A program made the position numbers and the translations under genes. The notes under the pieces were generated by a model. It saw nothing but the letters and a program-made list of their open reading frames with translations, was not told where the DNA came from and made no database searches. Below are positions 12,666 to 41,971 of a stretch of DNA of 64,000 nucleotides, piece after piece; positions within the stretch are counted from its first letter, which is position 1, and each line of letters starts with the position of its first letter. Source of the DNA: Catenuloplanes indicus (lineage in GTDB: Bacteria > Actinomycetota > Actinomycetes > Mycobacteriales > Micromonosporaceae). The stretch covers positions 4,898,001 to 4,962,000 of the forward strand of contig NZ_JAUSUZ010000001.1 in assembly GCF_030813715.1 (NCBI RefSeq), read 5' to 3'.

Positions 12666-13454
12666 TCAGGCTTGGGTGGGAGTGGGGTCGGTGGGCTCTG
12701 TGGCGGCGGCCTCGTCGTCGGGCTCTTCAAGCGCGGCAACGGAGCTGATGGTCGGCTCGGTGGGCGTCGCCCCGCCGTTAGCCGTGCCCGTTGCTGTTCC
12801 CGTTACCGATCCCGTGAGCGTGCCCGGGTCATCGTCGGCCGGTGTATTCCCGGTGGCCGCGAAGCTGGATGGGGCTTGCCACTGAATGTGCGGCGGCTCG
12901 GCGAGAGGGCGACCGCCGAACTCGGCAAGCCATGCCGCGACGAGCGCGAGGTTCTCCCGCCACTGCATCTCCGGGATCGGCGGGAGGATCGCGTCCCACA
13001 GGGAGAGGAACGTGCCGCGTAGCTGAAGCCGGCCGTAGGGGCGTGCGAGGAACCACATGTGCAGGTGTGCGGAGCCGTCGCCCCAGCGGTTGACGTGCAC
13101 GCGGGCGACGCCGTCCAGGGAACGGATGGCGCGTTCCAGCCGCACGGTCATCACGCCCAGCTCGGCGGCGAGCAGGTTCGGCAGATCGCCGAGATCCAGA
13201 TGGGAGCGTGACTCCAGGATCAGAACCATTGGCAGGCCGGACGGCTGGTCCATGGCGCGGACCCGCCAGCGGTCGCTGACCCAGATATACGCCTCGTCGG
13301 GCGCGGCGCACGCGACGCAGTCCGCCGAGCCCTCGCCCTTGCGCGACGGCTCGACCTCGACCGGGTCGTCGATCGGCTTCACGCGGATATCGCCCTCGAA
13401 CGGGAACGACGGCCACTTCGTGAACTCAGGAACGGAGGAGGGGGTGTGGGGCAC
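12666..13454 (-). CDS. HIT-like nucleotide-binding protein with long Pro/Thr-rich tail
   Basis: 262 residues from GTG 13454. A Cys pair (DCVACAAPDEAYIWV) and the motif GSAHLHMWFLARPYG near residue 155 resemble the N-terminus and active-site strand of HIT-family hydrolases and transferases, although the canonical HxHxH is reduced to HLH. The last 60 residues are rich in Thr, Ala, Pro and Glu and look disordered. The reading frame continues upstream through the DnaA-box and parS region, but no plausible start lies there. The cluster of DnaA boxes begins 85 bp upstream, so DnaA could affect its transcription; that is inference. Confidence 0.65.
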   Translation of the reverse strand: MPHTPSSVPEFTKWPSFPFEGDIRVKPIDDPVEVEPSRKGEGSADCVACAAPDEAYIWVSDRWRVRAMDQPSGLPMVLILESRSHLDLGDLPNLLAAELGVMTVRLERAIRSLDGVARVHVNRWGDGSAHLHMWFLARPYGRLQLRGTFLSLWDAILPPIPEMQWRENLALVAAWLAEFGGRPLAEPPHIQWQAPSSFAATGNTPADDDPGTLTGSVTGTATGTANGGATPTEPTISSVAALEEPDDEAAATEPTDPTPTQA

Positions 13455-13538
13455 GAGGCTGACCCTAACCGGTTTCCCGCCTGATGTCCTTACCTCATTT
13501 CGGCCCTGTCGTGGCCGGTCACGGTGGGGGTGCTGTGG

Positions 13539-13799
13539 TTGTCCACAGGCGCGGTTATCCACCGAGTTATCCACAGGCACGCTTCGCGCCCTGTGGATTA
13601 CGGATCGGCATGCCAGCTCAACGGAGGCGATCAAACACCCTGCGTGGACGCGGGAAACGGAGTTATCCACCGCCTTCATCCACAGGCCAACAGGGCTCCT
13701 GACGCGCTGTTTCACGTGAAACGAGGCAGCCTGTGGATAACTTCTGTGGATAACTTTGGCCGGTGCGACCGTCCCGGCAGGTGGGCGAAGTTTTCCACA
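13539..13799. promoter_or_regulatory. Secondary DnaA-box cluster, about 9 boxes
   Basis: Nine 9-mers close to TTATCCACA lie within 261 bp: 13539 TTGTCCACA, 13555 TTATCCACC, 13567 TTATCCACA, 13592 TGTGGATTA, 13663 TTATCCACC, 13676 TCATCCACA, 13732 and 13745 TGTGGATAA (13 bp apart), and 13791 TTTTCCACA. The spacing and density resemble oriC, 12.8 kb to the right. A parS site (13709) sits inside the cluster. It is located upstream of the HIT-like gene and has no coding capacity that I trust. Confidence 0.7.
13709..13722. other. parS site (exact 14-mer)
   Basis: GTTTCACGTGAAAC, the palindromic ParB-loading sequence of many bacteria, lying inside the secondary DnaA-box cluster. Confidence 0.85.
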
Positions 13800-13825
13800 G
13801 GGATGGTCGGTAAGCCGGTCTCGGG

Positions 13826-13839
13826 GTTTCACGTGAAAC
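13826..13839. other. parS site (exact 14-mer)
   Basis: Second exact GTTTCACGTGAAAC, 117 bp from the previous site and just outside the DnaA-box cluster. Confidence 0.85.
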
Positions 13840-14051
13840 GGGGGGAAGAACTCTCATGTTGGTGCGGTGAGCCGATGGGCGGGTGGCAGGAGCGGTGGGC
13901 GGATCGACTCGGCCCGCGTGCCGCGCGAGCTGTCCTACGGAAGGCCGGCGTCGCGATCACTGCTTGCCTGGCGACGTGGGGCGGGGTGGCGATCTTGGAA
14001 CGCGAGTCCGGAGCCGGTTGGTCGGCCTCGGGTGGGTGAGAGGGTGGAGCG

Positions 14052-14444
14052 TCAGCGCCGCATCCACGGTGCCGCGCGATACGCGACCAGGAGCGAGCCG
14101 GCGGCCAGGCCGGAGATGACCGCCTGGGCCACTCTCGATGCTGGGCTGCCCACGGGCAGGCAGCAGCCGGCGTAGCCGTTGGCGAGCGCGTCGGTCACCA
14201 AGACGAATGCGGCGAGATAGAGACCGGCGCGCGCCGACGGTCGACCAAGAGCCATGCGGCCGAGGGATCCAGTGCGGTGAGCGACATGAAGTACGCCGCG
14301 AGCCATGCCGGTGCCCAGGGGTACGGCGGCCAACCGCTCGTTAGTTGCACCACGTGGATGACCCCCGTAGGCGAGGACGATGGCCTGAGCGAATACGACC
14401 ACCACGATGCTCCGGGGAACTCCACTCCACCGCCGTCGCCACAC
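14052..14444 (-). pseudogene. Small four-helix membrane protein with two frameshifts
   Basis: Read in one frame, the 130-residue product starts with a membrane helix (IVVVVFAQAIVLAYG) and ends with two (GLYLAAFVLVTDALANGYAG; VAQAVISGLAAGSLLVAY), but the middle is hydrophilic nonsense. In another frame of the same strand the middle encodes VIHVVQLTSGWPPYPWAPAW and YFMSLTALDPSAAWLL. The two frames join at a run of five C (14362-14366, plus strand) and at a GC-dinucleotide run (about 14226-14235). Shifts of +1 and +2 (or +1 and -1) would restore a normal four-helix protein of about 120 residues. The family is unknown to me. Read errors at both runs are a possible alternative. Confidence 0.55.
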
Positions 14445-15168
14445 GGATCCATCGTGTCGCGCGGCTTCACCGATTCGTGGGCACGCGCTCGGCTGGTGGG
14501 CTCACGCGTGGCCTTCGGGGTCCGGCGGTCAGGGCTTCCGTCAGCGGGGGAGAAGCACTACGTCTGAGAGTCGTTGGCGCGGTATGCGGGTGCTGCAGAG
14601 TGTTCCGTTGCCGATGGCCGCATGTTTCTGTGGTCGGCGTCGGGTTCGCGTACCGCGGTTGCGGCGGGAGGCAGAGGCCGCTTCGGAGAGCCGGCGTTCC
14701 AGCAAGACGAACCGCTACGTGAACGCCATGGGGGGGCAGAGCGCGACCAGGGCGGCCGCGGGGAGGAACGAGCGCCGGGCTTCGCCAACGCGGATTCAGG
14801 GTAATGAGCCTGACAGCCGCCTCCTACTTCTTATCGGAGCACCCACGTCGCGAGTGCGTCGGCAGGTCGCATGGCGGCGATCGTGCCCAGGCTCTGGACT
14901 GGACCTGCGTCCGACGGTGATGCACGGACGATCACGCTGGCCCGTCCGTGCGAGGCCGGGAAGCGGCTTTCGGCGGATGATCATCTCGGGCGAATGTTTC
15001 TGGCACGCCCTGGGCTGCTGTGCTGGGCGGTCGTAGGCCCGAACCATCGGAGGCGCCGCGAGTTCTCTCTCCGCTCAAAACGAAGGTCGCGATCGGCCAA
15101 CGTCTGGCTTCACCTCAGCTTCCTCCTTCTCATGCTGGTCGACGAATCAACCGCCCCCGCACCCCGCG

Positions 15169-15182
15169 GTTTCACGTGAAAC
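15169..15182. other. parS site (exact 14-mer)
   Basis: GTTTCACGTGAAAC in the gene-poor region left of parB. Confidence 0.85.
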
Positions 15183-15670
15183 TGGGTGATCCCTTTAGCC
15201 ATCGAGGCCCTCGCGCTTAAGTCGGACACCGCGGGGATTTCGATAGTACGGAGCGGCCTTTGGGTGGCGACGGGTTCAGGAGCCCTGACGCACCAGCCTC
15301 TGCGAAGACGACGGCTCGATGATGGACCTCTCCACCGCCAACCACGGGATGGCTCCGCAGCGTTGAGGCCAGGCGGCAAGAGACTACGCATTGCCTCGGC
15401 CGGCAATCGACGCGCCGATTGAGTTTTGCTGCGGCGTCCCACCGCGCTGATAGAGCAGCCCGGCTGGCGCGAGTCAGCGATGAAGTCCCATGGCCGTCAC
15501 GCTGAAAAAGGCGCCTCCTGTCATGAAATGCTGGCGAGCACCCGTCATCGGGGTCGCGGGAATCGCTTGATCCGCGTGTCACATCGTCGGCGCACGGATG
15601 CGATCCAACGCCATCGTGTTTCACGACTGCGGGATCGAACGCGCGGCGCGGCATGTTTGAGGCTCTCGAC

Positions 15671-15684
15671 GTTTCACGTGAAAC
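15671..15684. other. parS site (exact 14-mer)
   Basis: GTTTCACGTGAAAC, 502 bp right of the previous site, in non-coding DNA. Confidence 0.85.
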
Positions 15685-16969
15685 GGAGCGATCCGCAGCT
15701 GTCGCATCAAGCGAACCTGTGCGGGCGCCGTTGCGGCAGCGTCCTCGAATGCAGTTGAAGCGGAAGGCAGCGCCTCGACGTCCGTGATCGCCCGCATGTT
15801 GACCGTATGCGGTGACAGCCCGGCCCAGCTGGAGGGCGTAACCCACCCGATCCGGCGCGCGGCGGTGCGTTTACCTCTACCGGAAGATCGAGTGGATACT
15901 CGGCCTGCACCCGACAGGGTGCGCACTCATCTCAGCGGTGCTGCCCCTTGACGGTGAGCAAGCTTCTCCTCGGAGACCGGCATCTACGCGACGCTGATGC
16001 GTCAGGCCGTGCTCGCGCATAACCATGGCCTAGCGCTTCCAGCATGGTCAGAGATTCCTCTACCGTGTCCTGGCGCCATACGTGCCAGACGTGGTGTCCT
16101 CGCGGCCACCGGCCAGCCCCGAACTCTGGCCACAGTCCGCGTGCCTGCTCGGGAGAACCGGAGGCGACTCAGTCGCGTTGGGCGCAGCGCAAGCGCGATT
16201 GGTTGCTTCTAGGCACGAGCCGGCTCGCCACGCCGGCGCCGGCCTCGCTGCGGCTTCCACTCAACTCAATCCGACGTGCTCCGATCGGGTGCGGCGGTTT
16301 CTCGTCTAGTCCATTGCAATACGGTTCGCCACGATCCAGCGCGGCACGGCCGGGGAACTGGCCCGGCCTGGTGAGCGGGCGACGGTGGTTGGCGTCCGGG
16401 TGCCCGCTCAAGTGGAAGCTCTGCCGAGTGGGTTGGAAGCACACTGCCGCTCCGCACTGCGAATTTGGCGCACTGACACGAAAGGAAGATCACCTGGCAT
16501 CACGAGGGGACCGCGTCTCCGGAGCTTCGATATGGCCGGTGCCGGCCGATGCGACGCCAGCGGCTGTGGTGCCCGCTCCCACCGGTCCCGGTCACGGTGC
16601 TGCCGCGGAGCTCACAGGCCCGAGCGCAACGGGCCGAAACCTGGTCAGCCCGCCCGGCTCGTTGCTCCAGCCATTCGGTTGCGACTCCAAGAGATCGGTC
16701 CCGGCCCCGACGCTTGGCCTACTCACGAAACGGCTTGCACCACACCCAAGCCAGGTCGGCAGCAGAATTGCGGTTCGCCGACAGCCTGTACGGATCCGAT
16801 CGGCAACGGAGCAACGACACCCACAACGCCCACGAGCCAGCGCCGGCAGCTCGGTGAACGCCACGTCCCGGCCGATCCAGGCAACGATGCCGGCACGGGA
16901 AGCCGTTCAGTTCGGCGTGACACCTCCATTCCCCGCACGGGCGATCACGCTCGTCGGGCCGGCACGATC

Positions 16970-16983
16970 GTTCCACGTGAAAC
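16970..16983. other. Variant parS site
   Basis: GTTCCACGTGAAAC, one base different from the exact palindrome, 133 bp left of an exact site. Confidence 0.6.
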
Positions 16984-17102
16984 CTTGCTTCAGCCGCTCA
17001 AATGATCTCTGGCGGCCCGGCGCACCGCAGCCCACCCCCACACACGAGTGTCACCATTTCGACCGCCAGTGAGCCGCACAAGCCGCCCCACGCATGCCCC
17101 AG

Positions 17103-17116
17103 GTTTCACGTGAAAC
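17103..17116. other. parS site (exact 14-mer)
   Basis: GTTTCACGTGAAAC, 87 bp downstream of the parB stop. Confidence 0.85.
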
Positions 17117-17140
17117 CGGCGCCTCCCGTACGTACCCCGG

Positions 17141-17183
17141 AAAAGGAAATCGGCCCGAAGGGCCGGAAGGCCTTCGAGCCGAT
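17141..17183 (-). terminator. Terminator of the parAB unit
   Basis: On the minus strand, a CGGCCCTTCGGGCCG hairpin (plus-strand 17151-17165) is followed by ATTTCCTTTTCC. An outer repeat ATCGGC (17149-17154) / GCCGAT (17178-17183) offers an alternative larger stem. It begins about 20 bp after the parB stop. Confidence 0.6.
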
Positions 17184-17202
17184 GCGGTGTTCCGGGGCAG
17201 GG

Positions 17203-18249
17203 TCAGCCCTCTTCGTCCTCGCGACGCTCGACGCCGATTATTCCGACGATGCGCTCCAAGTCGTCCACCGTCGCGAACTCGATCGTGATCTTGCCCTTGC
17301 TCCGTCCGATGTCGACCTTGACGCGGGTGTCGAAGCGGTCCGAGAGGCGGTCCGCCAGATCGGTCAGTGCCGGCGCATGTGGCTTGGCACGCCGCTGCGC
17401 GGCCTTCTTCGCCACCGGACCGTCGCTCAGCGCAAGCTGAACCAGTTCCTCGGTGCCGCGGACGGAGATGCCCTCGTTCACGATCCGCTTGGCCATCTCG
17501 TCCTGGGCGTCCGCGTCCTCCAGGGCCAGCAACGCCCGTGCATGGCCGGCGGAGAGGACGCCGGCGGCGACGCGGCGCTGGACCTGTGGGGGGAGGTTCA
17601 GGAGGCGGATGGTGTTGGAGATCTGGGGGCGGCTGCGGCCGATGCGGCGGGCCAGCTCGTCATGGGTGGCGCCGAACTCCTCGAGCAGCTGCTGGTATGC
17701 GGCCGCCTCTTCGAGCGGGTTCAGGTTGGCGCGGTGGATGTTCTCCAGGAGGGCGTCGCGGAGCATCGCGTCGTCCTTGGTCTCCCGGACGATCGCGGGG
17801 ATGGTCTCCCGGCCGATCGCCTGGGCAGCGCGCCACCGCCGTTCACCCATGACGAGTTCATAGCTGCCGGGTTCGAGCTCGCGGACCACGATCGGCTGGA
17901 GGAAACCGACCTCCTGGATGGAGATCTTGAGTTCCTCCAGCGCCTCCTCGTCGAAGACGTGCCGGGGTTGCTTGGGGTTGGCGATGATGTCGTTGACCGA
18001 GATCTCGGCGAAGCGGGCACCGGGCACGGGCGCGAGCGCCGGCTCGGCAACGGCGGGCTCCACCACCGGAGCGAGGGGTACGACCGCTGGCTCCACCGGT
18101 GGCGGAGCGTCAACCGGGGCCGGATCCGGCGGAGCGACCTGAGCCGGCGGTGCGGCCGGAGCGGGCACGGACACCGTCTCGGCCGCAGGCGCGGTCGGGA
18201 TCAGGGCTCCGAGTCCACGCCCGAGCCCGCCCTTAGGACCCTTCCTCAT
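17203..18249 (-). CDS. parB: Chromosome-partitioning protein ParB
   Basis: 348 residues. After a basic Gly-rich start ([15 protein letters not shown]) and a Pro/Ala/Val linker, the N-terminal CTPase/ParB domain (about 85-180) contains NPKQPRHVF and the GERRWRA box. The HTH domain follows ([17 protein letters not shown], then [18 protein letters not shown]), and a C-terminal dimerisation region ends at DEEG. ParB loads at parS, spreads, and recruits SMC condensin. Eight exact parS sites in this window support a working system. It lies 146 bp downstream of parA in the leftward origin operon. Confidence 0.95.
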
Positions 18250-18395
18250 CTGCCCGCTTCTCCTTGCTCAGATGCCGCCACCGCCGCGCCACCCGCGACG
18301 GCCACCAAGTCGCCCGAATCAACCACAGTGCCACACACCACGGGCCGGCGGTGTAGCCGTCCCGGAACCGACCATGCTAAAGCGCGCCACGGCGC

Positions 18396-19520
18396 CTACC
18401 CGTTGCGGCCCAGGCTTTCCGCGGCGCCCCGCTCGGCGATCTCGCGGGCGGCCTCGAAGTAGCTGGTGGCCCCGCGCGAGCCCGGGTCGTACGTGACGAC
18501 GGACTGTCCGTAGCTCGGCGCCTCGGAGACGCGGACGTTCCGGGGGATGACGGCCTGCAGCACCTTGTCACCGAAGTGGTTCCGCACGTCCTGCTCGACC
18601 GCGTCGGCCAGGCGGGTCCGCCGGTCGTACATGGTCAGCAGGATCGTGGAGACATCGAGCGTCGGGTTCAGGTGCTGGCGCACCAGGTTGATGTTGTTGA
18701 TCAGCTGGTTGAGCCCTTCCAGCGCGTAGTACTCGCACTGAATGGGGATCAGCACCTCCTGCGCGGCCACGAGCGCGTTGACCGTGAGCAGGCCGAGCGA
18801 CGGCGGGCAGTCGATGAACACGTAGTCGAACTGCTCGGGGTGGCTCTTGATCGCGCGGGACAGCCGCGACTCACGGGCAACCACGGAGACCAGTTCGATC
18901 TCGGCACCGGCCAGGTCGATGGTGGCGGGCACACACCACAGGTTCGGGATGCCCTCGACGCCTTGAGCCACGTCGGCCAGCGGCACGTTGTCGATCAGGC
19001 AGTCGTAGACGTCGGGCACGCCGGCGTGGTGCGGCACGTTCAGACCCGTGGACGCGTTGCCCTGCGGGTCGAGGTCGACCACCAGCACGCGGTTGCCGTG
19101 CAGTGCGAGTGCCACCGCCAGGTTGACCGTCGTGGTGGTCTTACCGACGCCGCCCTTTTGGTTGGCGACGCACATGATCCGGGGGTGCGCCGGACGAGGC
19201 ATGGTCACCTCGCCGCTGGGATTCAGGATCTGCACGGCGCGCAACGCCTCCATGGCCAAAGGAAGATCCACGTCGGCGGGAGCCGACGTTTCACGTGAAA
19301 CGTAGGGGTCGCTTGCTGTCTCAGTCGGCAGTTCGGGTCCGCCGTAGCCGTTTCCCACCCGCGGTTGCGGCACCGGATACTCCTCGCCCTCAAATCCACC
19401 CGGTCCTACCGGGGCGGGATCAATCGTGCCGTACACGGGCTCGCCCGGCGAGCCGTCATAGCGCGTTTCACGTGAAACAGGGTAAGGGGAGGAACCTGAG
19501 TAGCTTCCGTAGTCCTGCAC
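18396..19520 (-). CDS. parA: Chromosome-partitioning ATPase ParA
   Basis: 374 residues from GTG 19520. The ATPase core begins around residue 110 with the deviant Walker A motif ANQKGGVGKTTTTVNLA; the Walker A' motif VVDLDPQGNAS and Walker B motif YVFIDCPPSLGLLTVNAL follow. The 110-residue N-terminal tail is Gly/Pro/Ser-rich and twice contains VSRET, each encoded by a parS site. I chose GTG 19520 because AGGG lies upstream and the tail length suits other actinobacterial ParA proteins. The frame stays open another 828 bp upstream (see the next entry), so the true start is uncertain. Confidence 0.88.
   Translation of the reverse strand: MQDYGSYSGSSPYPVSRETRYDGSPGEPVYGTIDPAPVGPGGFEGEEYPVPQPRVGNGYGGPELPTETASDPYVSRETSAPADVDLPLAMEALRAVQILNPSGEVTMPRPAHPRIMCVANQKGGVGKTTTTVNLAVALALHGNRVLVVDLDPQGNASTGLNVPHHAGVPDVYDCLIDNVPLADVAQGVEGIPNLWCVPATIDLAGAEIELVSVVARESRLSRAIKSHPEQFDYVFIDCPPSLGLLTVNALVAAQEVLIPIQCEYYALEGLNQLINNINLVRQHLNPTLDVSTILLTMYDRRTRLADAVEQDVRNHFGDKVLQAVIPRNVRVSEAPSYGQSVVTYDPGSRGATSYFEAAREIAERGAAESLGRNG
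19288..19301. other. parS site inside parA (encodes VSRET)
   Basis: GTTTCACGTGAAAC within the parA N-terminal coding region. Read on the minus strand it gives Val-Ser-Arg-Glu-Thr. Confidence 0.85.
19465..19478. other. parS site inside parA (encodes VSRET)
   Basis: Second exact GTTTCACGTGAAAC in the parA N-terminal region, 177 bp (59 codons) from the first, in the same codon phase. Confidence 0.85.
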
Positions 19521-20348
19521 CGTGTCATCCCTGCCAAATTCGGATGAGTCCACACTATCGACGCGCGGCCAGCCTACGGCGGTGGGGCGCCCATGGCCAC
19601 GCCCATCCGGACCATGTTTCACGGGAAACGAAAGCCCTTCGGAACTGAAGACCATGAAGCCGGTCGTCAACCGCAGCACGCCGGAGCAGTGCGCCTCGCA
19701 GCCCGGCCAGCCGGTGCCGTCCGGCGCCTCCAGCAGCGGGTCGATCTCCGGCGGTGGCGGGCGCAGACCGGAGGCCAGCCGGGAGGCGAGCGACGCGGAG
19801 AGCGGCGCGGAGAAGGTTGCCGGAAGAAGCGGAACCGCCGCCACCGGTACGGAGATCGGCGCGGGGAAACCAGGGGTTCGCGCGGCAGGCGTCGAGGTCG
19901 ACGGCGGTACCGCCGCGTCGTTCAGCAGGCCGGCATCCAGCGGGCTGGAGGCGAGCAGTCCGGCCGGCGACCGCTTCGTGCCCGGCCCAGCCGCTGGTTC
20001 CCCGGCCGGTGTGCCGGAGGAGCCTTCGCCCCGCGCTTCGCCCGAGGCCGAACGCAACGTAGAGGCCGAGACCGACTCCGAAACGGAAGACGACGCGACA
20101 GACGGTGGCGAGACGGAGTCCGGCGGCGCGGCGAGTGCTGGCAGAAACGCCGGGTTCGCAACCGTCGACGACGGCTGCTGCCCTGAAGCCGATGCGGACG
20201 CCGACCGCTGCGCAGCCGGTAAGGCCAACGGCTGTTCCTCAGCCGGCGAGGACGGCGGCTGCGCCGGAACCGATGAGGACCGCGTCGAGGGCGGCACGAC
20301 CGAACGCCCGCCCCCGGCCTTCCGCTTACCGCGCCGCCGACCCCGCAT
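19521..20348 (-). other. In-frame open extension between rsmG and parA (possible ParA N-terminus)
   Basis: The frame of ParA stays open for 276 codons upstream, to an ATG at 20348 placed directly after the rsmG stop (TAGATG). The encoded sequence is low-complexity Ser/Ala/Pro/Val (SASASASGQQPSSTVANPAF, for example) and becomes more protein-like near the end (EIDPLLEAPDGTGWPGCEAH, CSGVLRLTTGFMVFSSEGL). GC at third codon positions is high. The complementary strand is also open for 831 bp, so chance openness in high-GC DNA cannot be excluded. It could be a disordered ParA extension or a separate small gene. Confidence 0.35.
19616..19629. other. Variant parS site
   Basis: GTTTCACGGGAAAC, one base different from the exact palindrome, about 100 bp upstream of the chosen parA start. 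Confidence 0.5.
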
Positions 20349-23875: not shown

Positions 23876-24514
23876 GTCAAACTCCGTCTTCGTACGGCCC
23901 GAGCACGCTCTGCGAGCCGGAGGTCGTCTGTCCCTGCGTTCCCCGAGGCCGGAGGTGATCTTGCAAACGGCCCGAAGTCTCTGGTCAATGCTAACCGGCC
24001 GCACCAGGAGTCGCCCGGCGGGCCGTCACGGCCAGCCGATTAGCCTGCCCAGAGTACGCGGGTGCACCACCAGGCGTCAAAACGCGCCGGCCGGGCGCAC
24101 CCCCGGTGAACTGCTGCTACTCCCGGCCCAGGCCCGCTTGCCCGGTCCGGCGGTTGATGCTGCGGGGCCATCGCTGTTAGCGTGCCCGTTTGCCGGTGAC
24201 GACATCGGCGGCCCGGCCGCCGAGGCGCACCGGGGCGGCCAGAACCGGACGAGGGGGAAAGTCGTTCGGCACGGTGGACCCTTCATCCGCGCCACCGCAG
24301 CTCGGCCGGTCTCACCAGCAACGGACGGTAAGCCACAATCGGTCGGTACACAGGGTGTGGATAACCTGTGGACGACGGTCGTGAAGAACGTGGGTAGCAG
24401 CAGCGTCGGCGGGGGGCCGACGACCCGGCCCGCGGTCCCGGCGACCACAAGACGACAGCGGCTAACCGGCCGGCAGGCGACCGGTGATGCCGGAGCGATG
24501 GGGGTGGCGGGACG
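23876..24514. other. rpmH-dnaA divergent promoter region
   Basis: 639 bp without a gene. It should hold the promoters of the leftward rpmH operon and of dnaA. One DnaA box (24356) is visible about 150 bp before the dnaA start. No other element is clear to me. Confidence 0.6.
24356..24364 (-). promoter_or_regulatory. DnaA box upstream of dnaA
   Basis: TGTGGATAA (reverse of TTATCCACA), followed by a half-matching TGTGGACGA three bases later. The position fits DnaA autoregulation, which is known in several bacteria. Confidence 0.55.
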
Positions 24515-26401: not shown

Positions 26402-26545
26402 CCTCGGGGTCGCCCGGAGGGCTCTTCTTCGGCGCTCGTCGGCGCCCCGGCCGCTCACCAGCGGGCCGTTACTCAACTGTTACCAGGGCGTTCGCCCCAC
26501 CCCGAGTCGCGCGGGTGCGGTGGGCGCCCTTTGTCGTGCCGGAAG

Positions 26546-27184
26546 TTATCCCCAGAAGTTATCCACCGCTTGTCCACTGCGTGGAGGCTTCGTCCACAGG
26601 CATCCACAGATCTTGACGGTTTTCCACAGGTATCTATCCACAATCTGTGGACGCCCAGGTTGCAAGTGCGCAAGGCGGAATTTCCATATCCACAGGTGGC
26701 GACGGCTATCCACATCCTCCGATCGGTTGGTTGTCCACACTGTCCACACGCCGTCCACAAGCTATCCACCGGAGTTATGCACAGTCGGTGGATAACCTAG
26801 ACCCGGCTTGTCCACAGGTGGGGATAACTTCTGTGGAAACGACTGTGGATGTGTACACGCAGTAATCGGCTGTCCCCAGAAGTGGATCACATGTGAATAA
26901 CCTGTTGAAGGTTCTGGGGATAACTCTTGTACACAGGCCACGCCGTAATCCACACCCAGGGGAAAACCCGGTGGAAAACCGGTGGATAACTGGGGTTACG
27001 CAGTGGATAACCCGAAGGCCCGCAGATGGCCTGTGGAGAACTTGCCGAGTTATACCCCGGTTCTCCACAGGTAAATCACCGGTGGATAACTCGCTGACCT
27101 GCTAAAACTCGGGTTATCCCCAGTTTCCACAACACCGATGACTACGACTCTCTTTATTTCTAGAGATTAGAAAGATCAATCATC
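26546..27184. other. oriC: Chromosomal replication origin oriC
   Basis: About 30 nine-mers within two mismatches of TTATCCACA lie between 26546 and 27130. Exact or near-exact copies: 26731 and 26808 TTGTCCACA, 26559 TTATCCACC, 26787, 26981 and 27081 GGTGGATAA. Boxes from 26546 to about 26816 mostly read on the plus strand; those from 26819 to 27090 mostly read on the minus strand. An AT-rich segment (27147-27184) closes the region. Position between dnaA and dnaN is the standard actinobacterial one. Confidence 0.95.
27147..27184. other. AT-rich segment of oriC, candidate unwinding element
   Basis: CTCTTTATTTCTAGAGATTA and the bases after it form the most AT-rich stretch of the origin, at its dnaN-proximal end. 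It is the best visible candidate for the DNA unwinding element; unwinding itself is inference. Confidence 0.5.
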
Positions 27185-27410
27185 GGCTTGTGGAGGATCT
27201 TGAACTCGCGCTTCGCCTCGCAAGATCCAGAGCGCGCCGGGGAGGAGATGGCGGATGGCGAAAACGGGCGGGGGCGGGGAAGCGGAGGTCATCGGGGCGA
27301 CCTAAGGTTCGGTAGGTCAGGGCCGGGCACCCGGTCCGCACAGGGTCTGGCCCGCGTACCCACCTCTTGGCGCTGGACCGGCAGAATAGGGATGCCCAAC
27401 CAGTCGACCC

Positions 27411-27415
27411 GGAGG
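27411..27415 (+). promoter_or_regulatory. Ribosome binding site that fixes the dnaN start
   Basis: GGAGG lies nine bases before ATG 27425. The frame is open further upstream, to 27188, but the family begins at this Met. Confidence 0.7.
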
Positions 27416-27424
27416 CACGTGGCC

Positions 27425-28558
27425 ATGAAGTTCCGAGTGGAGCGCGACGCGCTCGCCGACGCCGTGGCGTGGACCGCCAAGAGCCTGCCCAGCCGGCCGT
27501 CCGTGCCGGTGCTCGCCGGTGTGATGCTGCGCGTCACCGACGGCGTGCTGCAGGTCTCGGGTTTCGACTACGAGGTCTCCAGCCAGGTCAGCGTCGACGT
27601 GCAGGGCGACTCGGACGGTGCCGCGCTCGTCTCCGGCCGCCTGCTCGCCGAGATCACCAAGGCGCTCCCCGCCAAGCCGGTGGACATCGCCGCGGTCGGC
27701 CCGCACCTGGAGCTGGTGTGCGGCAGCGCCCGGTTCACGCTCCCGACCATGCCGGTCGAGGACTACCCGAGCCTGCCGGACATGCCGGCCAGCGCCGGCA
27801 CCGTCGACGCGGCCGCGTTCGCCGCCGCGGTGAGCCAGGTGGCCGTCGCCGCGGGCCGGGACGAGACGCTGCCGATGATGACCGGCGTGCGACTGGAGCT
27901 GACCGGCACCACGCTGGCCATGCTCGCCACCGACCGCTACCGGCTCGCCATGCGCGAGATCGAGTGGTCGCCGGAGGACCCCGAGATCAGTATCAACGCG
28001 CTCGTGCCGGCGAAGACCCTCAATGACACGGCGAAGACGCTCGGCCCGCTGGGCGGTCAGGTCACCCTGGCTCTCGCCCAGGGCGGCGCGGGCGAGGGCA
28101 TGATCGGTTTCGCCGGCGGGACCCGCCGGACGACGAGCCGGCTGCTGGACGGCGCCAACTACCCGCCGGTCCGGTCGCTGTTCCCGGCGACGCACAACGC
28201 GCAGGCGCGGGTCTCGGTCTCCGCACTCCAGGAGGTCACCCGCCGCGTGGCGCTCGTCGCCGAGCGCACCACCCCCATCCTGCTCAGCTTCAGCGAGGAC
28301 GGTCTCGTCGTCGAGGCCGGCGGCACCGAGGAGGCGCGGGCCAGCGAGGCCATGGACGCCACCTTCACCGGCGAGGCGCTCACCATCGGTTTCAACCCGC
28401 AGTACCTGCTGGACGGGTTGAACCAGCTGAACGCGCCCACCGCCGTGCTGTCGTTCGTCGACGCGTTCAAACCGGCCGTGTTGTCCCCCGCGAGCGAAGA
28501 CGGCGAGATCATTACTGGGTATCGCTACCTGATCATGCCGATCCGGGTAACCCGCTGA
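27425..28558 (+). CDS. dnaN: DNA polymerase III sliding clamp (beta subunit)
   Basis: 377 residues from ATG 27425 (MKFRVERDALADAVAWTAKS), the usual length for the clamp. The three clamp domains are visible as repeated patterns, for example FTLPTMPVEDYPSLPDMP, LATDRYRLAMREI and the C-terminal GYRYLIMPIRVTR that forms the peptide-binding pocket. The dimer encircles DNA and tethers the replicative polymerase. It is transcribed away from oriC and followed by gnd and recF. Confidence 0.97.
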   Translation: MKFRVERDALADAVAWTAKSLPSRPSVPVLAGVMLRVTDGVLQVSGFDYEVSSQVSVDVQGDSDGAALVSGRLLAEITKALPAKPVDIAAVGPHLELVCGSARFTLPTMPVEDYPSLPDMPASAGTVDAAAFAAAVSQVAVAAGRDETLPMMTGVRLELTGTTLAMLATDRYRLAMREIEWSPEDPEISINALVPAKTLNDTAKTLGPLGGQVTLALAQGGAGEGMIGFAGGTRRTTSRLLDGANYPPVRSLFPATHNAQARVSVSALQEVTRRVALVAERTTPILLSFSEDGLVVEAGGTEEARASEAMDATFTGEALTIGFNPQYLLDGLNQLNAPTAVLSFVDAFKPAVLSPASEDGEIITGYRYLIMPIRVTR

Positions 28559-31673: not shown

Positions 31674-32228
31674 TCAGTAGTCCGCATAGACGGCGAAGGC
31701 GCGGTCGGCGCAGCGGCGGTAGAAGCGGGCCAGGACGGCGAGTTCCGAAAGGGGAAAAGACCACTGCGGGGCGCCGCCGGATTCGTCGCGGAGGCTGTCC
31801 ATGCGGGTGGCGAGCCAGCGGAGTTGCTGGTCGGCGAGGCGGCTGTCGGCGATCGCGGTGCGCAGGACCTCGCCGACCGTGTCGAAGGTGACCAGGTCGC
31901 CGAGCTTCTCGTGGCCGATGACGAACTTCTCCAGGCCGCCGGCGATCCAGGCGCAGCCGTCCGGGTCGATGACCGGGTCCTCGTCCTCGTTCGCGGCCTC
32001 TGTGGCGTAGAGCACACCGTTGAGGCCGAGGAGCAGATCGACCAGCTCGGTGTACGCGGTGGCGCGCACGCTGCCGGTCTCCGCGATGTGGCCGGCCAGC
32101 GCGGCCGTGGGGGACTCCACGTCCGGCGCGTCGGCGACCTGGGCGAAGTCCACGAACGCGGCGGGTGCCACCGGGTCGTAGAACCGGCCCGTGCGTGGCC
32201 ACTGCACGGCGACGTTGTCAAGCCCCAT
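31674..32228 (-). CDS. Conserved unknown protein
   Basis: 184 residues, acidic, with no signal peptide or membrane helix. Visible segments: [20 protein letters not shown], then [20 protein letters not shown], and a C-terminal helix [21 protein letters not shown] do not recognise a named family. Third-position GC bias is strong, so it is a real gene. It points away from gyrB, with 541 bp between them, and is not part of the conserved origin block in mycobacteria. Confidence 0.7.
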
Positions 32229-32769
32229 CGGGGGTCACCTTCCCTTACGCCTCGGACAGTCTCGAACGCCTAGCGCCCCGCGCCGGGGCAGGTTACGCGA
32301 CCGGACGGGCCGAGCGCGACCCCGGCGCACCCGGATCGGTCATGCGTGCTTCGTCACTCAGTTCTTGCTTCCCCAGCGTGACGGACCGGCACGCATTTTC
32401 GCGCTCACCGTGGCTTTCCACACCATATGTGCCGCTCGGCTGGTCGTATCTCGGAGACCGGGGCCCGTGGGGGGAGTCGAGATCGGGCGGTTCTCGCCGC
32501 TACGGAGGTCTCAGGTGCCCGGAAGGGGATGCCGTACCCGGAGAATGTCGTCGGGGCACAGTAGGATTGGAGGCGATCGGGACGTCGTGAGCAAGCTGGT
32601 CGCGGAGATACACTCCGTGACCGGATTTGCCCGCTGCGTCCCGCCGATCGCGATCCGCGGGCTTCCCGCGGTGGTCCGCACGGCCCAGTCGCCGTGCGTG
32701 TCGCCGTGCGCCCGCCGAACCCGCAACGTCCGTCCCCCCGGGGCGTCCGGTGCGAGAAAGTGGCCGAGG
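32229..32769. other. gyrB upstream region
   Basis: 541 bp without a gene. The gyrB frame stays open through it, but the encoded residues do not resemble GyrB. It should contain the promoters of gyrB and of the divergent unknown gene; a TAGGAT at 32562 could be a -10 element, without a good -35. Confidence 0.45.
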
Positions 32770-34713
32770 GTGGCAGCGGAAGAAAAGCAGGAGTACAACT
32801 CCGATTCACTCACCGTGCTCGAGGGCCTCGAGGCGGTGCGGAAGCGGCCCGGTATGTACATCGGGTCCACCGGTGAGCGCGGCCTGCACCACCTGGTGTG
32901 GGAGATCGTCGACAACGCGGTGGACGAGGCACTGGCCGGTTACTGCGACACGATCGACGTGACGCTGCTGGCGGACGGTGGCGTCCGCGTCGCCGACAAC
33001 GGCCGCGGTATCCCCGTCGACATCCACCCGAAGCTGAAGAAGCCGGGTGTCGAGGTGGCCTACACGGTGCTGCACGCCGGCGGAAAGTTCGACGGCAAGG
33101 CGTACGCGGTCTCCGGTGGTCTGCACGGCGTCGGCGCGGCCGTGGTGAACGCGCTCTCCACCAAGGTGACCGTGGAGATCCACAAGGCGGGCACGCACTG
33201 GCGGCAGCACTTCGACGCGTCCAAGCCGACGCCGATCGAGCAGCTCGGCGCGACCGACGGCAAGGGCACTACGGTCTCGTTCTGGCCGGATCCGGCGATC
33301 TTCGAGACCGTCGAGTTCGACTTCCAGACGATCTACCGCCGGCTTCAGGAGATGGCCTTCCTCAACAAGGGCCTGACCATCCACATCCTGGACGAGCGCC
33401 AGGCGGACGAGGAGGGCAAGAAGCGCGAGGTGACCTTCTGCTACAAGGAGGGCATCGCCGACTTCGTCCGTCACCTCAACGCGACCAAGACGCCGATCCA
33501 CAAGTCGGTGATCCAGTTCGACGCCGAGGGCGACGGCATCGCGGTCGAGATCGCCATGCAGTGGAACGAGTCGTACGGCGAGTCGGTCTACACGTTCGCC
33601 AACACGATCAACACCCACGAGGGCGGTACGCACGAGGAGGGCTTCCGTGCGGCGCTGACCACGCTGATCAACAAGTACGGCGCGGAGAAGAAGATCCTCA
33701 AGGGCGACGAGAAGCTCTCCGGCGAGGACATCCGCGAGGGACTCGCCGCGATCATCTCGGTCAAGCTGGCCAACCCCCAGTTCGAGGGCCAGACCAAGAC
33801 CAAGCTGGGCAACACCGAGGCCAAGAGCTTCGTGCAGAAGATCTGCAACGAGTGGCTGGTCGACTGGCTGGACCGCAACCCGGCCGAGGCCCGGACGATC
33901 ATCACGAAGGCGTCGCAGGCCGCTCGTGCCCGCATCGCCGCGGCGCAGGCGCGCAAGCTGGCCCGCCGCAAGTCGCTGCTGGAGTCCGGCTCGATGCCGG
34001 GCAAGCTGGCCGACTGCCAGTCGACCGACCCGCGGGTCTCCGAGGTGTTCATCGTCGAGGGTGACTCGGCCGGCGGCTCGGCCAAGCAGGGCCGTGACCC
34101 GCGAGTCCAGGCGATCCTGCCGATCCGCGGCAAGATTTTGAACGTGGAGAAGGCGCGGATCGACCGCGTGCTGAAGAACAACGAGGTCCAGGCGCTGATC
34201 ACGGCGCTGGGCACCGGCATCCACGACGACTTCGACATCGAGAAGCTGCGGTACCACAAGATCGTGCTGATGGCCGACGCGGACGTGGACGGCCAGCACA
34301 TCCAGACGCTGCTGCTCACGCTGCTGTTCCGGTTCATGCGGCCGCTGGTCGAGCTGGGTCACGTCTACCTCGCGTCGCCGCCGCTCTACAAGATCAAGTG
34401 GAACCGCAAGGGTGACGACGCGCAGTACGCGTACTCCGACCGCGAGCGGGACGGTCTGATTCGGCTGCGCCAGGAGAAGAAGCCGAACGCGAAGCCGGAC
34501 GACATCCAGCGGTTCAAGGGTCTCGGCGAGATGAACTACCCCGAGCTGTGGGAGACCACGATGAACCCGGCCACGCGGACGCTGCGCCAGGTGAGTCTGG
34601 ACGACGCTGCAACCGCGGACGAGCTTTTCAGCGTCCTCATGGGGGAGGACGTGGAAGCACGCCGTTCGTTCATCCAGCGCAACGCGAAGGACGTGCGCTT
34701 CCTGGACATCTAG
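32770..34713 (+). CDS. gyrB: DNA gyrase subunit B
   Basis: 647 residues from GTG 32770 ([20 protein letters not shown]). The GHKL ATPase domain has [15 protein letters not shown] and the G-rich lid ([15 protein letters not shown]). The TOPRIM domain has [14 protein letters not shown] (about 428-441) and the metal-binding DADVDGQH (about 502-509). The C-terminal segment [15 protein letters not shown] contacts GyrA. With GyrA it introduces negative supercoils; this subunit hydrolyses ATP and is the target of aminocoumarins. gyrA follows after 105 bp. Confidence 0.97.
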
Positions 34714-34742: not shown

Positions 34743-34782
34743 TTATCCACAGCTTCCGCGCTTTCCACAGCGGTTATCCACA
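34743..34782 (+). promoter_or_regulatory. Three DnaA boxes between gyrB and gyrA
   Basis: TTATCCACA at 34743, CTTTCCACA at 34761 and TTATCCACA at 34774, all in the same orientation, within 40 bp. The last ends 36 bp before the gyrA start. Confidence 0.65.
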
Positions 34783-34818: not shown

Positions 34819-37341
34819 GTGACGGATACTCCCGAGTCCACGGGTAGCGAGCAGCCGGAGGAGCCCGCGGCCGACGCCGCGGTGGACGCCGGCGGCCGGA
34901 TCGAACCGGTCGGCCTCGAAGTAGAGATGCAGCGGTCGTACCTCGATTACGCGATGAGCGTCATCGTCGGCCGCGCCCTCCCGGACGTCCGCGACGGCCT
35001 CAAACCGGTGCACCGCAAGATCCTCTACGCGATGTACGACTCCGGCTACCGGCCGGACCGCGGCTACGTGAAGTGCTCCCGCGTCGTCGGTGACGTGATG
35101 GGTCAGTTCCACCCGCACGGCGACTCCGCGATCTACGACGCGCTGGTGCGCATGGCGCAGAACTGGTCGCTGCGCTACCCGCTGGTCGACGGCAACGGCA
35201 ACTTCGGCTCGCCGGGCAACGACCCCGCGGCCGCCATGCGGTACACCGAGTGCAAGCTCGACCCGCTGGCCATGGAGATGCTGCGGGACATCGACGAAGA
35301 CACCGTCGACATGCAGGACAACTACGACGGCCGGGCCAAGGAGCCCACGATCCTGCCGTCGCGGATCCCGAACCTGCTGGTCAACGGGTCCGAGGGCATC
35401 GCGGTCGGCATGGCCACCAAGATCCCGCCGCACAACCTGCGGGAGATCGCGGCCGCGGTGCAGTGGTGCCTGGAGAATCCGGAGGCCGAGGAGGCCGAGA
35501 CGCTCGAGGCGCTGCTCGGCATCGTCAAGGGCCCGGACTTCCCGACCAACGGCCTGATCGTCGGCACCCAGGCGATCCAGGACGCCTACCGGACCGGCCG
35601 CGGCTCGATCCGCATGCGCGCGGTGGTGGACGTGGAGGAGGACGCGAAGGGGCGCACCTCGCTGGTCGTCACCGAGCTGCCGTACCAGGTCAACCCGGAC
35701 AACCTGGCCGAGCGGATGGCTGACCTGATCAAGGAGGGCAAGCTCGCCGGGATCGCGGACATCCGGGACGAGTCCTCCGGCCGTACCGGTATGCGCCTGG
35801 TGATCGTGCTCAAGCGCGACGCGATCGCCAAGGTCGTGCTGAACAACCTGTACAAGCACACGCAGTTGCAGGAGACGTTCGGCGCGAACATGCTGGCGCT
35901 GGTCGACGGCGTGCCGCGCACGCTCAACCTGGCGCAGTTCATCCGGTACTACGTCGAGCACCAGATGGAGGTCATCCGCCGGCGGACCGCGTACCGCCTG
36001 CGCAAGGCCGAGGAGCGCGCGCACATCCTGCGCGGTCTGGTCAAGGCGCTGGACATGCTCGACGAGGTGATCGCCCTGATCCGGCGCTCGCCGACGGTCG
36101 AGGACTCCCGCCAGGGCCTGATGTCGCTGCTCGAGGTGGACGAGATCCAGGCCACCGCGATCCTCGACATGCAGCTGCGGCGTCTCGCCGCGCTGGAGCG
36201 CCAGAAGATCATTGATGAGCTCGCGAAGATCGAGATCGAGATCGCGGACCTCAAGGACATCCTGGCCAAGCCGGAGCGGCAGCGCACGATCATCTCCGAG
36301 GAGCTCGGCGAGATCGTGGCGAAGTGGGGCGACGAGCGCCGTACGCAGATCATCCCGTTCGACGGCGAGGTCTCGATGGAGGACCTCATCGCCCGCGAAG
36401 ACGTGGTGGTGACGATCACACGGACCGGGTACGCGAAGCGCACCAAGGTCGACCTGTACCGCTCGCAGAAGCGTGGCGGCAAGGGTGTGAGCGGTGCCAC
36501 ACTGCGCCAGGACGACATCGTCTCGCACTTCTTCGTGACCTCGACGCACTCGTGGATGCTCTTCTTCACCAACAAGGGCCGGGTCTACCGCGCGAAGGCG
36601 TACGAGCTGCCGGAGGCCAGCCGGACCGCGCGTGGCCAGCACGTGGCCAACCTGCTGGCGTTCCAGCCGGAGGAGCACATCGCGCAGGTGATCGTGATCC
36701 CTGGGTACGACATCGCGCCGTACCTGGTGCTCGCGACCAAGGAAGGCCTGGTCAAGAAGACTCGGCTGGCCGAGTTCGACTCCAACCGCAGCGGTGGCAT
36801 CATCGCCATCAACCTGCGCGAGGAGGACGAGCTGGTCGGTGCGGCGCTGGCCGGACCGGGTGACCATCTTCTCCTCGTCTCGAAGAAGGCTCAGGCCATC
36901 CGCTTCGAGGCGACAGACGATACGCTGCGCCCGATGGGACGGGCGACCTCCGGTGTCATCGGCATGCGCTTCAGCGAGGACGACGAGCTGCTCGCGATGG
37001 AGGTCGTGCAGGAAGGGATGGACGTTTTGGTAGCCACCAACGGTGGGTACGCGAAGCGGACACCCATCGAGGAGTATCCGGTGCAGGGACGTGGGGGCAA
37101 GGGCGTGCTGACCGCCAAGATCACGGAACGGCGTGGTGGTCTGGTCGGTGCCGTTGTCATCAACCCGGATGATGAACTGTTCGCGATCACGAGTAACGGT
37201 GGCGTGATCCGGACTCCGGTGAAGCCTGTACGTCGTACGCGGGACCGGAACACAATGGGGGTCAAGCTCATGGATCTCCCAGAAGGCGTGACCATCGTGG
37301 CGATTGCTCGCAATGCCGACGAGCCTGACGAACAGGACTGA
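34819..37341 (+). CDS. gyrA: DNA gyrase subunit A
   Basis: 840 residues from GTG 34819. The breakage-reunion domain carries catalytic Tyr142 in MRYTECKL. The quinolone-resistance region reads [10 protein letters not shown], with Ser103 and Asp107 at the E. coli Ser83 and Asp87 positions, that is, the sensitive residues. The C-terminal beta-pinwheel has the GyrA box QKRGGKGV and a second related motif QGRGGKGV further on. Three DnaA boxes lie just upstream, and DUF3566 follows after 3 bp. Confidence 0.97.
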
Positions 37342-41957: not shown

Positions 41958-41971
41958 GTTTCACGTGAAAC
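41958..41971. other. parS site (exact 14-mer), right arm
   Basis: GTTTCACGTGAAAC between the convergent YbaK-like and sufE genes, 15 kb right of oriC and 22 kb from the main parS cluster. Confidence 0.85.

Follow-up and report, generated by a model that had tools for sequence, protein, structure and literature searches.

A conserved arrangement of DnaA boxes around the outermost parS of the Micromonosporaceae centromere: a predicted joint site for DnaA and ParB

In Catenuloplanes, the parS that ends the array on its outer side is bracketed by DnaA boxes at near-constant distances. The arrangement recurs in many genera of the Micromonosporaceae, as a rule in single copy, and is kept whichever way the neighbouring gene is oriented. 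Near-constant spacing, single copy and the choice of the parS at the edge of the array suggest that DnaA and ParB act together here. With somewhat more confidence than doubt, we therefore predict that the two proteins share a conserved binding site where the centromere ends on its outer side. Such a site would probably couple the level of the initiator to ParB loading and would possibly titrate DnaA as well. This suggests that a small DNA element links the start of replication to chromosome segregation.

How unusual is the cluster? The earlier note had seen nine DnaA-box-like 9-mers, several of them exact, in 261 bp with a parS inside, and had expected a random stretch of this length to hold almost none. 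Counting 9-mers with at most one mismatch to TTRTCCACA bears this out: nine lie within 13539-13799, four of them exact, around a perfect parS (Table 1), and at the shuffled rate 0.027 would be expected per 261 bp, giving a Poisson P(>=9) of ~2e-20. The whole window, by which we mean the 64-kb stretch of DNA that was analysed, holds 46 such matches against a mean of 6.57 and a largest value of 14 in shuffles. In the entire 9.25-Mb genome, TTATCCACA occurs only 26 times and TTGTCCACA only 20 times. Chance was rejected as the source of the cluster on the box rate relative to shuffles and on a reversed-pattern control without matches: read with its letters backwards, the strict pattern defined below gave 0 matches in 150 genomes of the family.

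Table 1. Features of the cluster and its surroundings, in window coordinates
Feature	Position	Strand	Remarks
HIT-like gene, family unknown	12666..13454	-	GTG start at 13454; beside the element in relatives
Whole DnaA-box cluster	13539..13799	.	nine boxes with at most one mismatch, four exact
Exact box TTGTCCACA	13539	+	
Exact box TTATCCACA	13567	+	
Further boxes	13539+, 13555+, 13567+, 13592- (span 13539..13600)		partly kept in the same-genus loci examined
Core composite element, 78 bp	13676..13753	+	weaker forward box, 24 bp, parS, 9 bp, two inverted strong boxes
Left outer box TTATCCACC	13663..13671	+	starts 13 bp before the left inner box; conserved at genus level, not family-wide
Left inner, weaker box TCATCCACA	13676..13684	+	TCATCCACA in 47 of the 80 named loci listed
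parS GTTTCACGTGAAAC inside the element	13709..13722	.	perfect; outermost exact site of the parS array
Right inner strong box TTATCCACA, exact	13732..13740	-	
Right outer strong box TTATCCACA, exact	13745..13753	-	13 bp from the right inner box
Box TTTTCCACA	13791..13799	+	between the core element and the second parS
Second parS of the array	13826..13839	.	just outside the box cluster
parS array	13709..19478	.	seven of the genome's eight exact parS; eighth at 41958
parB	17203..18249	-	Pfam
parA ORF	18396..20348	-	Pfam
dnaA	24515-26401		Pfam
oriC	26402..27187	.	between dnaA and dnaN; own box cluster 26546-27122; 70% AT stretch
dnaN	27188-28558		Pfam

Because dnaA, dnaN, parB, parA and rsmG were identified by Pfam, the cluster can be placed beyond parB and ~12.8 kb from oriC, the distance that had been proposed from the sequence. 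The parA ORF has about 390 residues ahead of the ATPase domain, and its true start may be internal. The HIT-like neighbour gene of the earlier note is present, its extent now being set from the minus-strand GTG at 13454 to its end at 12666; a shorter minus-strand ORF at 12829-13416 is in another frame. Its product is conserved, with a match (E<=1e-10) in 28 of 30 family genomes searched. Pfam and PDB sequence searches with the protein gave no match, nor did NCBIfam with the 388-aa ORF that contains it, and the putative label 'HIT-like' comes from an HLHMWF motif. Between this gene and parB lie 3.7 kb (13455-17202) with five exact parS, in which the ORFs tested were all without a Pfam match.

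Could the cluster itself be a second origin, or one half of a bipartite origin, as the earlier note had considered? The number and density of its boxes are origin-like, and a box cluster is among the features expected of an oriC. An AT-rich unwinding stretch beside the boxes, also expected, is lacking: the best 40 bp are 55% AT vs 70% in oriC. The two clusters are moreover 12.8 kb apart, while bipartite origins extend up to ~2 kb according to the portion of a review that treats them (PMC4285127). On both counts an origin at this place is very improbable, and the second origin was discarded. Other boxes lie closer to oriC or beyond it. Two, one of them exact, are found just upstream of dnaA (24356-24375) and perhaps serve dnaA autoregulation. 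The gap between gyrB (32191-34713) and gyrA (34819-37341) contains two exact TTATCCACA boxes, 34743-34751 and 34774-34782, 31 bp apart; box pairs at 30-31 bp occur within ~25 kb of the element in six other genomes of the family (G047, G084, G032, G034, G036 and G003).

In the core element, the two inner boxes stand head to head, 56 bp start to start in window coordinates, and the centre of parS is 20.5 bp from the centre of the right inner box in the window and 20.5-21.5 bp overall, or about two turns of B-DNA. A conserved left-hand box pair 13 bp apart was considered and dropped, the pair being seen in Catenuloplanes loci and few others. The left outer box is present at 13 bp in the Catenuloplanes loci examined; among the loci listed, a left box-like 9-mer (<=2 mismatches) lies at 13 bp in 3 of 52 loci with the element oriented as in the window (A+) and at 12 bp in 17 of 27 loci with the element inverted (A-).

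Which parS carries the boxes? All eight exact parS sites of the genome are inside the window, seven of them within 5.8 kb and close to parAB and oriC, as expected of a ParABS centromere. Since these seven lie between 13709 and 19478, it is the array's outermost parS that carries the cluster. The same holds in relatives: over the 79 listed loci, 203 other exact parS were counted on the parB side of the element (296,860 bases) vs 7 on the side of the HIT-like gene (313,373 bases), and the element thus marks the outer edge of the parS array. Among parS sites more than 200 bp from the element in these 79 loci, 1 of 176 has a box within ~50 bp, a count that leaves aside parS at 200 bp or less, such as the additional parS found in the Actinoplanes clade, likewise with boxes nearby. 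In the window, the second parS at 13826 is 26 bp from the box at 13791-13799. From the rarity of boxes at distant parS and the box near 13826, we conclude that boxes go with the outermost parS and with the site close beside it.

We next consider conservation within the family. Of 150 Micromonosporaceae genomes, 72 match a strict pattern (half-box, 23-26 bp, parS, 8-11 bp, inverted half-box), and these represent 18 of 44 genera; each has a single copy, except for one assembly with two copies on one contig. A named scan with one genome per species gave at least 120 stretches, of which 80 are listed. These include Micromonospora, Actinoplanes, Paractinoplanes, Dactylosporangium, Salinispora, Plantactinospora, Virgisporangium and Catenuloplanes, the remainder being other Micromonosporaceae and one MAG labelled Actinobacteria. 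Among the 80 listed loci, the gaps from box to parS and from parS to box are (24,9) in 37, (24,10) in 37, (24,8) in 3, (23,10) in 2 and (25,9) in 1; the 24-bp gap is kept in 77, and the second gap is 9 or 10 bp in 77 and 8 bp in the other 3. The right inner box is TTATCCACA in 39 of these loci, TTGTCCACA in 23, TTTTCCACA in 17 and ATTTCCACA in 1. The right outer box, which the pattern does not demand, is exact TTATCCACA in 70 of the 80 and contains TCCACA in all 80.

Alignment rows were chosen by a pattern that requires parS and half-boxes, so that only the remaining box letters and the right outer box count as evidence of conservation. Most spacer and flank columns show 30-50% row agreement and some 60-70% (81/85 loci). 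The comparison of relatives proposed at the outset, boxes conserved while the spacer varies, thus came out positive for the 18 of 44 genera with the strict form. The TTC-ACG columns ~5 bp before parS are better conserved than other spacer columns. They would fit a further protein that bends or loops the region and sets the spacing, DnaA and ParB being passive; column conservation nevertheless peaks over the box and parS motifs, in rows selected for that pattern, and we consider such a protein improbable.

Does the cluster regulate its neighbour? DnaA can be a transcription factor, as the part of PMC8203912 on this point describes, and the element lies 67-324 bp from the start of the HIT-like gene in 51 of the 52 listed loci with the window orientation. 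An operator through which DnaA controls this gene or a divergent transcript should keep a fixed promoter position and orientation. The distance to the gene start varies from 67 to 808 bp in the 52 listed loci, the longest in a single locus, and the element is reversed relative to the gene in 27 of 79 listed loci (the 80th has no HIT match). In addition, 11 of the twelve genera with at most one upstream box have the gene, at 55-72% identity. The variable distance and the inversion lead us to disfavour the operator suggested in the earlier note, which we regard as quite improbable.

The remaining genera are informative as to how the arrangement varies. In a first set of 30 loci anchored on the HIT-like gene, the arrangement is readable in many genera. 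For 27 genera whose sampled genome lacks the strict pattern, 30 genomes were searched with the HIT-like protein (E<=1e-10) and 28 matched; some of these variant loci (L248, L253 and L266) had less than 800 bp of upstream DNA. The 44 genera divide into 18 with the strict form, 7 with the inverted pair only, 5 with another arrangement, 12 with at most one box and 2 (g6 and g30) in which no match to the HIT-like protein was found at E<=1e-10. The inverted pair without an exact parS inside is seen in g2, g3, g15, g18, g25, g31 and g39, and six of these seven have a parS within ~40 bp outside the pair. Since the pair persists without an exact parS between its boxes in seven genera, it is under a constraint of its own. 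Several boxes and parS in another order are found in g9, g16, g17, g19 and g42; in four of these five, a minus-strand box starts 30-31 bp from the start of a parS. At most one box is present in g5, g7, g11, g12, g13, g14, g26, g27, g35, g38, g40 and g41. Absence of the boxes from close relatives, which the earlier note had named as a refutation, was not seen: the same-genus genomes examined have boxes. Further out in the family, 12 of 44 genera have at most one there. The five genera with another arrangement and the twelve with at most one box indicate that the element is dispensable for ParABS in general.

A tree of 70 HIT-like proteins (one gene, 209 columns, midpoint root) places ten of the twelve genera with at most one box in one early split. 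A branch with support 98/95 separates 13 rows, each with fewer than two boxes, from the remaining 57, of which all but 2 carry boxes in one of the arrangements. This looks like a single event within the family, either a gain of the element or an early loss on the opposite side of this branch. The strong pair faces parB in 52 and the HIT-like gene in 27 of the 79 listed loci, and the inverted rows in the tree, 8 of 8, fall in one clade, Actinoplanes and kin (support 97/94). There the inverted element keeps its geometry. All 27 inverted loci listed also have a further exact parS towards parB, which starts 77-79 bp away from the first one. With the modules set in the same orientation, spacer identity between A+ (49) and A- (27) loci is 0.389 vs 0.284 for permuted columns, a value reached by 10 of 500 permutations. 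This points, with moderate strength, to inversion of the working unit in the Actinoplanes clade; as the spacer test is only moderate, the element may instead have re-formed in place by a shift of parS.

Is the element a general actinobacterial feature? Sampling of the class does not support this: the strict pattern was found in 0 of 391 genomes of other families, and a slightly wider pattern in 3 of 394 class genomes, all three of them Micromonosporaceae. The element was also absent from ~10-14 kb downstream of parB in 20 other-family genomes (24 with parB located); one f3 genome has four box-like sites in ~60 bp with no exact parS. When the pattern was relaxed to a parS with one full inverted box no more than 34 bp away, 5 of 296 genomes matched: three Micromonosporaceae and, among the 293 genomes outside the family, two of genus g90 (family f29). 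Within ~100 bp of a parS, one of the g90 genomes has two boxes and the other three, all on one strand and spaced by 21 bp or more; the sites are at L288 1501-1560 and L289 1501-1605, the first two boxes being 21 bp apart. Hence parS with boxes in another geometry exists elsewhere, possibly as an independent pairing of parS and DnaA.

Might the boxes simply titrate or inactivate DnaA, with parS present merely because the array occupies this stretch? Several consensus boxes lie together outside oriC, as expected of a titrating cluster, and nine boxes, four exact, are many for a genome so poor in TTATCCACA. As described in the relevant portion of PMC4585315, oriC-proximal clusters repress untimely initiation in Streptomyces coelicolor and Bacillus subtilis. 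The genus has other conserved box clusters without parS, and the survival of the inverted pair in seven genera that lack an exact parS between its boxes points the same way. A hitchhiking parS, however, should not hold a 24-bp gap in 77 of 80 listed loci, and the near absence of boxes at parS more than 200 bp away speaks against titration alone, as do clusters without parS in two Streptomyces-like genomes. Plain titration is the strongest of the alternatives, though we judge it rather unlikely; titration and coupling may both hold.

Four more DnaA-box clusters are present in the Catenuloplanes genome (G000:C1 5064721, 5234478, 5541879 and 5830474; loci L032, L033, L034 and L036), all on one side of oriC and within about 0.9 Mb. 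Their exact-box spacings are identical in three Catenuloplanes genomes (G000, G047 and G084), and they could form a graded set of DnaA-binding stations. On the other side of oriC, G000 has no exact TTATCCACA pair outside the element.

Known oriC-proximal box clusters of Streptomyces coelicolor are H69, H24 and D78. In two Streptomyces-like genomes (genus inferred), we located clusters of 6 and 7 box-like sites (L270 1604-1915 and L272 1595-1907) about 75-90 kb from parB, each with an exact box pair 13 bp apart; no parS (<=2 mismatches) was found in the 3.5 kb around them. This cluster may be D78. The 14 kb downstream of parB in four Streptomyces-like genomes have at most two boxes within 300 bp, and positional homology to a D78-type cluster was not found there.

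How would a joint DnaA/ParB site work? DnaA on the head-to-head boxes would bracket one parS, flanking it at the weaker box to the left and at the strong pair to the right as the window is read, and a ParB dimer would nucleate on parS. As the strong inner box is about two helical turns from parS, DnaA and ParB would be neighbours on the same face of the helix. Occupancy by DnaA would track the level of free or ATP-bound DnaA, and bound DnaA could help or hinder both ParB loading at the bracketed parS and the escape of sliding ParB clamps. The centromere next to oriC would thereby sense the state of the initiator. Conversely, ParB sliding off parS could strip DnaA from the boxes. Binding by DnaA and ParB, their effect on one another, the sign of that effect and the link to the cell cycle are what we infer from the arrangement of motifs. 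The strong side faces either way, 52 vs 27 of 79 listed loci, which argues against a simple one-way barrier to ParB.

A bolder proposal is that the element is an initiator-sensing centromere switch, in which one designated parS per chromosome, placed between DnaA molecules at distances set by the turn of the helix, would have its ParB loading gated by DnaA, so that the protein which fires oriC would also license segregation, and which would have arisen once in core Micromonosporaceae and later been inverted as a working unit. We offer it tentatively, as a possibility that falls clearly short of an even chance. The second parS of the Actinoplanes clade also has nearby boxes, so the one designated parS may there be two.

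Why would such a site matter? Only the outlines of how bacteria couple the start of replication to segregation have been worked out, in a small number of cases. An element this compact, present in single copy with distances kept over many genera and alterable base by base, would make this coupling directly testable. The Micromonosporaceae are antibiotic-producing actinobacteria, and their multi-genomic hyphae may, if the coupling we suppose holds, thereby choose which chromosome segregates.

DnaA boxes near parS are already known; the new part would be an element of set geometry shared by many genera, since a DnaA-parS-DnaA element of this kind was not found in the open-licence literature searched. 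How does it compare with known systems? The clusters of Streptomyces coelicolor and Bacillus subtilis, as presented in part of PMC4585315, likewise lie near but outside oriC in Gram-positive bacteria. The E. coli regions datA, DARS1 and DARS2 are non-origin regions acting on DnaA, in the account that the same text gives of them (PMC4585315). They resemble the cluster as DnaA-related regions outside the origin. To our knowledge, E. coli has no parS and no ParB. On Vibrio cholerae chromosome II, parS2 is embedded in rctA, a locus that binds the initiator RctB, according to a section of PMC6399470. There, as in Catenuloplanes, a parS lies inside a locus bound (here, by prediction) by a replication initiator; the differences are that the initiator is RctB instead of DnaA and that the chromosome is a secondary one. 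Mera et al. 2014 reportedly found that the centromere of Caulobacter crescentus is bound by DnaA. In that organism, DnaA occupies the parS region, and a low level of it can set an unreplicated centromere in motion, as set out in part of PMC6399470, and the DnaA-bound parS region is 8 kb from the origin, as mentioned in a passage of PMC6667618. Caulobacter belongs to another phylum than Catenuloplanes. The likeness is one of position: DnaA boxes in Catenuloplanes and bound DnaA in Caulobacter are found at parS near oriC. The spacing, the single copy and the choice of the edge parS, together with this nearest precedent, lead us to favour coupling over plain titration, whichever sign its effect may have.
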